Shown: piece by piece, positions 39,726 to 44,600 of the stretch
Layout of the letters: every line of letters begins with the position of its first letter
Numbering within the stretch: position 1 is the first letter of the stretch
Source of the DNA: Pyrococcus horikoshii OT3
GTDB lineage: Archaea; Methanobacteriota_B; Thermococci; Thermococcales; Thermococcaceae
Direction of reading: 5' to 3'
NCBI RefSeq assembly: GCF_000011105.1
Contig: NC_000961.1
Location: forward strand, 668,662-732,661
Length of the DNA stretch: 64,000 bases
Made by a program: the position numbers and the translations under genes
The notes under the pieces: generated by a model
The model's input: only the letters and a program-made list of their open reading frames with translations
What the model was told of the DNA's origin: nothing
Databases searched by the model: none

Positions 39726-42700
39726 TTACCTTACGTATCTTTTAATCTCCTCATAAAGCTCATTTAGAACATCTTGATAATCGGCCTTGGCTTCTTCCAC
39801 CATATCCATGATTTTCTCGAGTTGTCTCGTCCTCTCCTCACTAACAAGATCCTTATATTTGGTAATTAAATACTGGTATACCTTTATCCCCTTCTCAGTT
39901 GGAACGAGCTTCTTCTTCCCCTTCGTCTCTATGACGTATCCCCTCTGGAGTAGGGTTTGAACTATTTTTGCATACGTTGATGGCCTTCCTATTCCCCTCT
40001 CCTTCATAAGCGCTATCACATCTCCCTGAGTGTAGAGGGAGACCTTGGGAGCCCTCCACTGTTTTACCTCTTTAACCCTTAGTCTCTGACCCTTCTCAAG
40101 TTTGGGTATCTGTCTAAGCGGAAGGGACTTTATCTTGGACCAACCATCGTAAAGCACATCTATGTAGCCTTCAACCTCTACATCCTTAAATGGTGTTGAA
40201 ATAATAGCTTTCTCATAAAGTATCTTTGCAGGCTTCATCTGGCTTGCCATGAACCTTCTAAATATTAAATCATACAGCCTGAAGTGATCCCTAGTTAGGT
40301 TCTTGGGTATAGTTATTATCCCATCCCTTATGAGCTGTATCAACCTTCCCGTATCTATCGGCCTCGTAGGTCTTATCGCCTCGTGAGCTCCTTCTTCACC
40401 CCACTTCCTTGGGGTAAAGTATTCCTCCCCAATTTCCTGGGTTATGTATTCCTTTGCTACCTCTATTCCCGTATTACTCACGTGTATGCTGTCGGTTCTA
40501 TGGTAAGTGCAGTTGTGGGAAACAATTCCATTCGAGATGAAGTTCTCCGTGGTCGTCGTAAAGTCGTAGAGCTTTCCTGTATAGTGCCTCTCTTCAATTT
40601 TCTCTACTCTAACCCAGGTAACCCTCGCTTCAACTAGAGAGTTGAGAAACTCCTTTTCAGGGCTATCTTCAGCGTATTCAAGGACTTTAGCAACTTCATC
40701 CCTTGGAATTTCCTCGTCTAAAATTCTGTTCTTAAAGCCATCCCTAAACTTTAGCTTTCTGAAGATGGAAGCAACGGGTAGGAAATCTCCCTCATTCTTC
40801 GATATCGAGTAGACTTTATCAAATTGGGACTTTTTAATCCTTAGGTATGGATAAATCTTCTCCCTAAACTTCTCTAGGTCACTTATTATCAACTCCCAAA
40901 CTCCCGCGTGTTCATCCCTTCTAAGGTTGTTAACTATTCCAATCTGGTACAGATAAACGCTAAGCATCCTAAGGATGTCGCCTCTCTTTGATGTCAATAC
41001 TGCTCTCCTTAAGAATGTTCCACTCGCATCAAAATAGCCCGCAATCATTGCATTGATATACTCCTCGCGTAACCCAAACACCAGCGAATGGAGCTTCCCC
41101 TCTCCAACACCCAGTCTCCTGAAGACTTCGGCTAGGATCAGATGTGAGAAGCCAATATGATCTGCAGACTCAAAGATACGAACAAAGGGGAGGGCTTCTT
41201 CAATAACTGGTTTGACATCCTTCTGGAATATTACGACTTTATCACCTTTCAGGGTTCCTTTCCCAAGGATTACACCGAAGATATACCAGAACCTCTCGTC
41301 TAGCTCGATTGATATTTGCTTTGAGTCCATCTCTTGTTCACGATTATTCAATTCCTGGGAGGAGGAATTCTCATACTCACTTATTCCGAGCTCCTTCAGA
41401 AGTTGAGGTAGGGTATATTTCTTCCCACCACGGTGGCCGAGATTATAGATAAAGGCGACGTAGTCTCCCTCTCTGATGTTCTTAGCGGAAACCCATCCAA
41501 TTTTGCCATCCCTCATTACGAGAAGTCCGTGATCGGGGGTTGCTTTAATTTCATGTCCATTCTTCAGTTTAATGACTTTTATTGGACCATCCCAATCTAT
41601 CTCCCAGAACTTAAGGGCCTTTGCCTCTTTCGGCTTGAGACCGTTTATACCAAGTAAACTTTCCTCAGAGTTTTCAACCGCTTCTCTTATCTCTATAATC
41701 CTACCATCAGAAAGGCTGACGAGTGTATCGGGAGTTACACAGAGACCGGCCTCAAACAGATCCTGGGCTAGTTGCATAGTCTTAGTTGCTGAGAATCCCA
41801 GGAATCTAGAGGCATCCTGCAACATGGTATCGGTTGTATAGGGAGGAAGGGGATTTACATCCTTCTCCTCTATTATTACGTCTTTAACTTCTACTTCCCT
41901 AACTTCACCTTTCGCATTCTCTATTGTCACGTTTATTCCGTTCTCAAGTATTATTCCAAGGAAGTCAGTTTCGCTTTCGGTGAATTCTTTATATCTCTGA
42001 ACTATCCAACCTAGAACTGGCGTTTGAACCCTTCCAGCTGAAAGGTTCCTATTCTCAAAGACTTCCCATAGTTTCTGGCTTAATTCAAACCCTATCCACC
42101 TATCTTCGATCCTCCTTACTAGCTGGGCATTTACCCTGTCTTCATTTATATCCCTGGCTTCCCTTATCGCTCTGAGTATCGCTGGTCTCGTAACTTCATG
42201 GAACTCTATCCTCTTTATGTTAGGAGCGTATGGAGCTAGCACGTTCCTTATATCCCAGGCTATTTTTTCTCCCTCTGTATCTGGATCCGTTCCTATAAGT
42301 ATCTCATCAACTTCGAGGGCTAGTTCTCTCATTGCTTTAACGTTCTCTAAAGCATCATGAACGTTTCTGCTGCCGCACCTTGGACAAACCCCTTTCTGTT
42401 CCCAGTCCACGAACTGGTGACCGCAATCCCTACACCTCTTTATAGTGTCATAAACTGGGACGAAGTACGGCTTTCCATTGTTCTTCAGTATTAAGACTCC
42501 ATGGTAGCCTTCATTGGTCACCAGATCGAACATGTGCCCACCGCTCGCTAAAATAGTTAGCATCTTGTCACCTATGCTAACTTCATATGCCGTTAGATCT
42601 CCAATTTTTCTCTTGCTCGGTTGCCCAAAGAAGCTTGCAATCGTTCTAGCCTTATTGGGGCTCTCCACTATCATAAGGGCTGATTTAACTAGATCTTTTA

Positions 42701-44600
42701 CCTGCTCGCTTATCTTCCCCTCAATTACGAGCTTAACCTTCTCTCTATCCCTGTCGATCTCCTTAAGAACTTCTTTGAGGTTTACCTCCTCAAATTTCTT
42801 AATATCAAATTCGACAAAGCGCCAGCGCATCTGCCTTATTAAACCGTTGAAAACTTTCTGATCGTCAACTATAATCACGCTAAGCCCCTTCGTTATTCCC
42901 CCAGCAAATAGCCTGGAAGTTCTACCGCTGGCCTGGATGTATGTCCTTACATCTGGTATCTCAATGTAAAGCTTCCCTTCTATCTCTTTTAAGCTTAAAA
43001 ATGGATTCTCAGCGATCTTTTTTATGACTTCTTCATCCTTGAGGACTTCCCTCAAGAACTCAACGGATTGCTTAAAGACCTCAAGTACGTGATTGTGAAA
43101 CCCTTCAAGCTCGAGTCCTTCTGCCAGAGCTTCCTCTATTTTCATTAATTCGTACTGAGGAATATTCCTTATAAGCCTTCTCAGCCTAGCGTAGAGTTTT
43201 TCTCCTTCGCTCTTTTTCTCCTCAGGTAAAAACTCAAGTATTTCGCTCATTAAACCGAGAACCCTGTATATTGTCGGTTGCTCGAGATCCATAGAGAATC
43301 TGAACTTTGGAACTCCTGTAAATATAGCAAACCTGATGAGGTGAGGTAGATCAAGCCCCCTAACAAGGGTTCCGTAATAAGTGGCAACTCCAACTAAATA
43401 GTCAATCTCACCTTTTTCAAATAGCTCTAGGCCTTTCTTGTTTTTAGCAGACACTAGCTCCACTTTAAATCCCTGAGATTTAAGATAGTCCGTTAATTCC
43501 TCGGCATACTCAATTCCCTTATCTATTGGAACGAAGATTAATCCTCCCTTTCCAAGCTTCCTAAGCAGTTCGACAACGTGCTCCTCAATGGGTTTTTCAG
43601 GTAGCAAATAAGTATCGACTATGTTCCTAAGAACGCTCCTCCCACTTCCAACTTCAAATCCCAGGAGTTCCCTGTAAAGTTTAATCCTATCTCCCTTTGC
43701 GCTACCAGTTGCTGAAGCTACGATTAGGATCCCTATCTTATTCCTCCTTTTGTACTCCTCGATTTCATCCTCTATCTTTTCTATCTCTTTGTTAAGTTTC
43801 TCTATTTCCTCTTCGTTCTTTTTCTCATTTTGAAGGAGTTTTGCAAGTTGTTTCTTTAGCTTTATAACTTCCCATGCCCTACCTATTATCTCCTCACTGA
43901 ATCCAAGCATTATTAAAGATCTGTCTATATTCTTACTCGCTTTTAAGAATGCATCAACGTCATCAACGAAGATTAAATCGAACTTCTTGTCTTTAAGTAA
44001 CTCTTTGAATCTAGTTGCCAAGAATTGGCTTGATGTAATTAATATGTCAAAATCTCCATTCCTTATCTTTTCTAGGGCTTCCTCCTTTTCTTTCTTCCTT
44101 AAGTTCCCGTGATAGTATACAAGCCTCACGGAAACGTTTGCTTTTTCAAGCATGCTCTCTATTTTTTTAACGGTTTGAATTACTAAAGGAGTTGTTGGAA
44201 CAACTATGTAGCTCTTTTTTCCTTTCGTCGCAAAATAAATCGAAATAAAAGCCCCAAATGTACTTTTTCCCATTCCTGTTGGAGCTATTATTGAGAAGCT
44301 TTTTCCCCTTATGATCCTCTTTACCCAAGTCCTCTGAGCGCTCCAGAACTTAAATCCAGTTGACTTTTCAAATAACTCCTCTATCTCACTAACTTCCTTA
44401 TTTAATCTATAAAGCTCCTCCCAGTCCTTCAAGGTGCCTCTAAGCTTTAGGGCATTTCTAACGGCAACGATCAACTCATTATAATCCTCAGATAGAATAG
44501 GCTCACTAAGACAACCTTCACAGGGATTTTTATTCGAAAGTCTCTCATCAGTTATTGCCCCTCTACAGTTGGGGCACATTCCCCTATAAATCGCCTTCAT
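39726..44600 (-). CDS. rgy: Reverse gyrase with in-frame intein
   Basis: The 1624-residue precursor gives a 1214-residue enzyme once the 410-residue intein is removed, the normal length. ATP-dependent positive supercoiling enzyme found in hyperthermophiles. Order: zinc finger C9-C12-C27-C30; helicase-like module with Walker A PTGMGKST (107-113) and VDDVDAF (212-218), a latch region; second zinc finger CRDCGHQF ... CPRCG; TOPRIM with [18 protein letters not shown] and [16 protein letters not shown]; topoisomerase IA domain with catalytic tyrosine in TYHRTDS (Tyr1366 of the precursor, 956 after splicing). The intein interrupts two residues before that tyrosine. The ATG at 44598-44600 has GAGGGAACC upstream. 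Confidence 0.98.
40512..41741 (-). mobile_element. Intein in reverse gyrase with decayed LAGLIDADG endonuclease
   Basis: In-frame protein intron, residues 954-1363 of the precursor (410 residues). It starts [18 protein letters not shown] (block A nucleophile Cys1), has block [15 protein letters not shown] and ends in block [12 protein letters not shown] with the terminal His-Asn, followed by Cys+1 of the host, so splicing residues are all present. Residues about 130-330 contain the two-motif endonuclease: IFGVILGKG (motif 1) and IAGYFDASG (motif 2). The residue that holds the catalytic acid (eighth of the motif) is Lys in the first (codon 41259-41261) and Ser in the second (codon 41022-41024). 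Splicing is expected to work; DNA cutting is not. Confidence 0.96.

Follow-up and report, generated by a model that had tools for sequence, protein, structure and literature searches.

The reverse gyrase gene of Pyrococcus horikoshii OT3 is interrupted by an intein whose LAGLIDADG homing endonuclease has the wrong residues at its two catalytic acid sites. This raises the question of whether the element can still move, and whether its state is a matter of its own history or of the genome in which it resides. The window, i.e. the whole stretch of 64,000 bases that was analysed, covers positions 668662–732661 and lies within a single contig of 1,738,505 bases. The features on which the argument relies are the following, in positions of the window.

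39726..44600, minus strand: reverse gyrase gene (rgy), open reading frame of 1624 aa with the intein; NCBIfam TIGR01054, 1509.7 bits
41742..41765, minus strand: 24 bases of N-extein adjoining the insertion; possible co-conversion footprint (tentative)
40512..41741, minus strand: intein, 410 aa, flanked by ...DLFEAGL and CTYHRTDS...; PF14890, TIGR01445 and TIGR01443
41406..41741, minus strand: N-terminal splicing region, aa 1–112, conserved; TIGR01445 at aa 1–75; boundary set by us
40629..41405, minus strand: decayed LAGLIDADG endonuclease region, aa 113–371, from the ortholog alignment; boundary set by us
41256..41282, minus strand: LAGLIDADG motif 1, IFGVILGKG; Lys161 at the acid site, codon AAA at 41259–41261
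41019..41045, minus strand: LAGLIDADG motif 2, IAGYFDASG; Ser240 at the acid site, codon AGT at 41022–41024
40512..40628, minus strand: C-terminal splicing region, aa 372–410, conserved, with His-Asn at its end; TIGR01443 at aa 391–410
40488..40511, minus strand: start of the C-extein next to the intein, Cys+1 followed by TYHRTDS

Catalytic and splicing residues of the reverse gyrase intein

The element corresponds to aa 954–1363 of the reverse gyrase open reading frame and is an intein by several signs: TIGR01445 and TIGR01443 both score above their cut-offs, the host protein is conserved, and PF14890 (Intein_splicing) covers aa 8–410 with 104.8 bits (cut-off 35.8, E 5e-30). Its endonuclease is of LAGLIDADG descent, as indicated by two motifs that align with those of orthologs and by a match of PF14528 (LAGLIDADG_3) at aa 227–296 (32.6 bits, cut-off 22.5, E 9.8e-8). 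With about 260 aa of endonuclease region left, it is not a mini-intein. The splicing residues, which the original prediction had listed as intact, are indeed all present as in the orthologs: Cys1, T68xxH71, His409-Asn410 and Cys+1. We take the topoisomerase tyrosine of reverse gyrase to lie within the TYHRTDS stretch of the C-extein.

A search of 94 Thermococcaceae genomes yielded 15 other inteins at exactly the same rgy site (L010–L024); L009, from a second collection, is the same contig as L010 and was left out of the ortholog count. The eighth position of a LAGLIDADG motif is the metal-binding acid, and an active enzyme would carry an acid there in both motifs. The motif register was set with the 15 same-site inteins, which align without gaps in the surroundings of both motifs and all have Asp at both sites (LGDG and DTDG), as against Lys161 and Ser240 in the window. 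All 15 encode these acids by GAT or GAC, as against AAA and AGT, so that at least two base changes were required for each acid lost. The loss of both acids that had been read from the window sequence is thereby confirmed, and its placement at 41019–41279 proved correct to within one residue (the motifs span 41019–41282). The 15 relatives share the insertion site of the window copy and a splicing-domain identity to it of 0.70–0.84 (14 of 15 compared); they are 488–490 aa long, and the window copy alone is decayed.

Replacement of a lost acid by a neighbouring one was ruled out, the register being fixed by an ungapped and strongly conserved context; alignment with the same-site Thermococcaceae inteins thus bore out the original assignment of the acid sites and offered no nearby acid able to substitute. 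The intact orthologs, too, invariably have Asp at position 6 of motif 2, and a profile built from the 15 orthologs aligns motif 2, in a weak match, with the GDG motif of I-MsoI. Sequencing error is an unlikely cause of the changes, since two bases differ per acid codon and 56 invariant columns are altered.

Decay of the endonuclease region

The window intein measures 410 aa as against 488–490 aa in its orthologs. In-frame deletions, which the original prediction had not noted, total 79 aa relative to the 489-aa orthologs. They comprise one gap of 46 aa, which the alignment splits, and further gaps of 3, 9, 2, 5 and 14 aa, and every one of them lies in the endonuclease region. Among the columns that are invariant in the 15 orthologs, 56 of the 137 in the endonuclease region are broken in the window (29 substituted, 27 deleted), as compared with 3 of the 85 in the splicing regions (aa 1–112 and 372–410), a difference that is highly significant (Fisher p 3.5e-11) also when substitutions only are counted (9.4e-6). 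When each of the 15 orthologs was left out in turn as a control, at most 4 of 89 splicing columns and 7 of 144 endonuclease columns were broken.

Branch ratios were used instead of dN/dS because dS was saturated in 6 of 8 splicing pairs and 8 of 8 endonuclease pairs involving the window intein. On a fixed tree of 14 orthologs (the duplicate L009 and L023, which lacks the N-extein, having been dropped), where the window copy falls beside L013 and L015 with a support of 46, the window branch measures 0.193 for the splicing and 0.469 for the endonuclease region, the remaining tree 1.691 and 1.993, respectively. The endonuclease branch is thus about 2.1-fold longer than predicted from the splicing branch (bootstrap 1.16–3.98), one of the 60 replicates failing to exceed 1. 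For the exteins, the window branch (0.440 vs 1.897) gives a ratio of 0.232, practically that of the endonuclease (0.235), which leaves the splicing domain as the sole usable yardstick; the tree behind these ratios is that of the intein, which the exteins do not follow. AlphaFold2 models made from two-row alignments were set aside (mean pLDDT 43.0 for L009 and 38.8 for the window intein).

Judged by these sequence comparisons, the rgy intein is very likely a once mobile LAGLIDADG element in a late phase of the homing cycle, predicted to splice and to be unable to home, and its DNA-cutting activity has probably been lost. The sequence part of the original prediction to this effect, namely lost acids and kept splicing residues, stood up to comparison, and the excess decay of the endonuclease supports it further; the behaviour itself stays a prediction. 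Selection on the endonuclease would have ceased, upon which both acids were replaced and in-frame deletions built up, as can be read from the alignment; the conserved splicing domain would have remained under purifying selection, presumably because reverse gyrase forms only when the intein leaves. We consider these two steps, taken jointly, to be highly probable.

A single dead intein is of a known kind. Decay after fixation is predicted in passages of the work that describes the homing cycle (PMC1654191), and an endonuclease that is degenerate or absent next to a kept splicing function is described, in the parts of PMC6801210 available to us, for TFIIB of Methanocaldococcus and for the CDC21-1 mini-inteins of P. 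abyssi and P. horikoshii. Unlike CDC21-1, which according to the same parts has lost the whole endonuclease domain, the rgy intein would stand at an intermediate stage. Its closest counterpart is PhoVMA (PDB 7QST; PMC8966425) from the same species, to which the VMA intein of the window genome is identical over residues 2–376. Going by excerpts of that paper, PhoVMA is likewise a LAGLIDADG intein that lacks both acids and keeps splicing, which for rgy is predicted. The two differ in host gene and insertion site and, as far as those excerpts describe it, in the form of the decay, motif 2 of PhoVMA being truncated by a deletion and both rgy motifs being kept with Lys and Ser. In the titles, abstract openings and passages of the literature that were covered, nothing describes the rgy intein of P. 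horikoshii as dead, and neither an assay nor a structure of this intein was found.

Loss of acids across the genome and the genus

The window genome (G000) contains 14 inteins, Lon included; P. horikoshii OT3 is credited with the same number in portions of PMC6801210.

Four of the 14 (RadA, PolII and two CDC21 inteins) are devoid of an endonuclease motif, three (KlbA, RIR1 and Lon) have both acids, and seven of the ten that bear an endonuclease have lost both (L098, L105–L109 and the window intein, 40512–41741). Except for reverse gyrase and VMA, the host genes carry names that are our own provisional assignments, made partly by eye. The residues at the two acid sites of the seven dead inteins are as follows.

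rgy: K/S
RFC: G/N
IF-2: R/N
LHR: S/N
RtcB: N/N
PolI: S and N or deleted
VMA: N/deleted

A decay index that leaves out the acid columns gave the same picture for the seven dead families: 17.6–48.1% of the invariant core endonuclease columns are broken in the window genome as against 0–5.6% of the splicing columns (only four such columns in PolI), and intact copies of the same families reach 13.9% at most. For the live controls KlbA and RIR1, the only ones with enough relatives (3 and 4 comparators, respectively), the endonuclease and splicing values are 23.3 vs 9.7% and 13.4 vs 15.6%. The KlbA value speaks against a clean separation of dead from live inteins, although so few comparators inflate both values. 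For each of the seven dead copies of the window genome, the four family members of highest identity are intact, and we therefore place each loss on the P. horikoshii lineage. The 'closest relative' is, however, biased toward intact copies, decayed ones changing faster; in the case of IF-2, the top match by score is a half-lost copy (G011, D/H). Intact motifs are no proof of activity.

The six other dead inteins were searched for in the 94 genomes at E 1e-40, matches without a locus were fetched, and both positions were scored. The resulting seven-site panel comprised 188 inteins, of which 184 were readable; the other four, with one unreadable site, were left out, and so was L136, a further piece of the RFC intein that is split in two in G039. 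At these sites, which were picked because they are dead in the window genome, both acids are lost in 7 of 7 inteins of that genome. Among congeners, at least one acid is lost in 10 of 22 inteins and both in 6 of 22; among other genera, one acid is lost in 8 of 155 and both in none of the 155 (congeners vs other genera, Fisher p 2.5e-6). When the loss label was shuffled within sites, the window genome being excluded, the observed per-genome pair count was reached in 0 of 5000 shuffles, the top single-genome loss count (4) in 16 of 5000 and the genus count in 1 of 5000; these shuffles do not model shared descent, and the IF-2 losses in G004 and G007 resemble one event. The threshold of E 1e-40 misses strongly decayed copies, possibly in other genera too: one such copy, the G007 LHR intein (N/N, 288 aa), fell below it and was seen only in the census described next.

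The census considered sites that had not been picked as dead, starting from the PF14890 matches listed in seven congeners and in five genomes from another genus (g3, presumably Thermococcus). Motif pairs were scored site by site and tallied by hand, inteins with no clear motif pair being left unscored, and the PolI intein of G028 was dropped since its C-terminal end was not found. Among the matches listed, the congeners hold 72 inteins (49 scored, 13 mini-inteins and 10 unscored), and both acids are kept in 28 of the 49 scored and at least one is lost in 21. Genus g3 holds 39 inteins among the matches listed; all 32 scored keep both acids, 2 are mini-inteins and 5 are unscored. Within these counts, the losses clearly cluster by genome.

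Such clustering brings up a lineage-level cause, for instance lost gene exchange or lost exposure to empty alleles, that would have released, or selected against, all endonucleases at once, the rgy intein being one part of a larger event. Double loss in seven of the ten endonuclease-bearing inteins of the window genome argues in its favour, as do the double losses in congeners that are lacking in other genera and cluster by genome, and the intact state of the four nearest copies in all seven families. On the other side stand the choice of panel sites, the three inteins of the genome that retain both acids, a search blind to strongly decayed copies with its bias toward intact closest relatives, and shuffles that disregard shared ancestry; moreover, long residence by itself could yield the same pattern. 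A cause of this kind is a serious possibility, if somewhat less probable than its opposite. The same tentative standing applies to a genome-wide shutdown of homing in P. horikoshii, accompanied by a lesser one in the genus, as suggested by seven unlinked sites at which one lineage has lost both acids and the same-site relatives in other genera have not.

Decay of individual inserts is ordinary, and VMA, one of the seven, has already been published as dead; decay across a whole genome is unusual. By way of comparison, sequence blocks identified an endonuclease in 72.4% of Thermococcales inteins in multi-intein genes and 83.7% of those in single-intein genes, going by sections of PMC10643990. 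Titles, abstracts and passages of the literature contained no report of genome-wide endonuclease decay or of endonuclease death clustered by host genome. The clustering matters more than the rgy case alone: the homing-cycle model handles elements singly, and decay clustered by host would indicate a cause at the level of the host. If so, a trait of the host lineage (e.g. lost gene exchange), and not only the fixation of each intein, would drive endonuclease decay, and the fraction of live endonucleases in a genome would serve as a measure of how much genes were exchanged in the past.

Two further genomes deserve a comment. In the congener G008, at least one acid is lost in 4 of 4 seven-site inteins (L132, L139, L235 and L251), namely RFC (S/D), IF-2 (K/K), PolI (E/N) and VMA (I/I). 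G072, of genus g3, is an outlier beyond the genus: one acid is lost in 3 of its 5 seven-site inteins (L157, L176 and L232), and its rgy intein retains both. In addition, the PolI intein of G028 (G028:C1:1091082-1092387, L267) is in two pieces, one of which contains an in-frame TGA, and represents either a broken frame or a sequencing error.

Remaining function and origin of the element

The window endonuclease has a dN of 0.21–0.27 relative to L010–L015, with dS saturated. Values this low imply that the region is not free-running: either its decay is recent or a role as scaffold persists. In the latter case, the domain would no longer cut and would be retained as a splicing scaffold, in a mutualism of the HINT and HEN domains, or as a DNA-binding module. 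Besides the low dN, the intact frame and an ungapped endonuclease identity of 0.68 to L011 are consistent with retention, and TliVMA deprived of its endonuclease is, according to passages of PMC8966425, largely unable to splice. The open frame, however, says little, as a frameshift would also ruin reverse gyrase; PhoVMA, from the same organism, splices without its endonuclease, as the same passages have it; and the deletions together with 29 changes at invariant positions speak against retained DNA binding. We therefore regard a retained function as rather unlikely. Weak nicking or cutting through other residues at the metal site is most improbable, for although other conserved core residues persist (e.g. 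Lys252 and Gln173), both acids are gone, residues beside Gln173 are deleted, and PhoVMA, which shows a comparable loss, is reported in the available part of PMC8966425 to be inactive and to cut DNA only after active sites have been grafted onto it.

Under the preferred reading of an element that splices and no longer homes, the first step would have been the arrival in the P. horikoshii lineage of an active intein from the rgy group that other genera carry today. Homing is its probable route, and this step is the weakest of the account. Of the 94 Thermococcaceae genomes, 16 carry an intein at the rgy site, 75 have an empty site and 3 (G052, G056 and G091) could not be resolved; G083 was scored as empty on a match that crosses the insertion site and starts at a contig end. 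That 75 of 91 resolvable genomes, among them all 8 congeners (a hand count), are empty indicates that the host fares well without the intein. That its place next to the catalytic tyrosine keeps the intein in P. horikoshii, as put forward in the original prediction, is a conjecture which these data neither strengthen nor contradict. With 15 relatives of intact motifs, a mostly empty site and unharmed splicing ends, the rgy intein is a clear-cut intermediate in the homing cycle.

Splicing-domain identity to the window (14 of the 15 orthologs compared) is 0.81–0.84 for L010–L015 and 0.70–0.76 for L016–L022 and L024; the exteins, by contrast, are roughly equidistant from all carriers (identity 0.74–0.79, and 0.75–0.76 to L010–L015, which are of other genera), which speaks for the proposed entry. 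In the left flank, bases 1–30 are 0.90 identical to L010, L011, L015 and L023, as compared with 0.73–0.87 for the other 11 carriers and 0.70–0.80 for the eight empty congeners, so that the ranges of carriers (0.73–0.90) and empty congeners overlap. Over bases 31–60, identity is 0.83 to L059 and L060 (the two congeners measured) and 0.53–0.57 to L010, L011 and L015. The right flank is best matched by the empty congener L060 (0.87), carriers reaching 0.63–0.80. Tentatively, the left flank may be a short, one-sided co-conversion tract left by homing. At the protein level, selection for splicing-friendly extein residues could be an alternative source of the likeness. The residues before the intein are FEAGL in 15 and FETGL in 1 of the 16 carriers, the window included, and the empty congener L066 also has FEAGL. 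Cys+1 is found in 16 of 16 occupied genes vs 2 of the 30 empty genes that were examined out of 75; the -3 residue in these 30 is Leu in 28, Ala in 1 and Val in 1.

The two empty genes with Cys at +1 are those of the congeners G007 (L059) and G004 (L060), where this residue is possibly a scar of precise intein loss or else the ancestral state. Finally, L015 (G015) has an extein that is 0.97 identical to that of L019, yet its intein is of the L010 type and that of L019 belongs to the other group, which points to replacement or transfer of the intein in L015. This mismatch of intein and extein implies that rgy inteins move between hosts.
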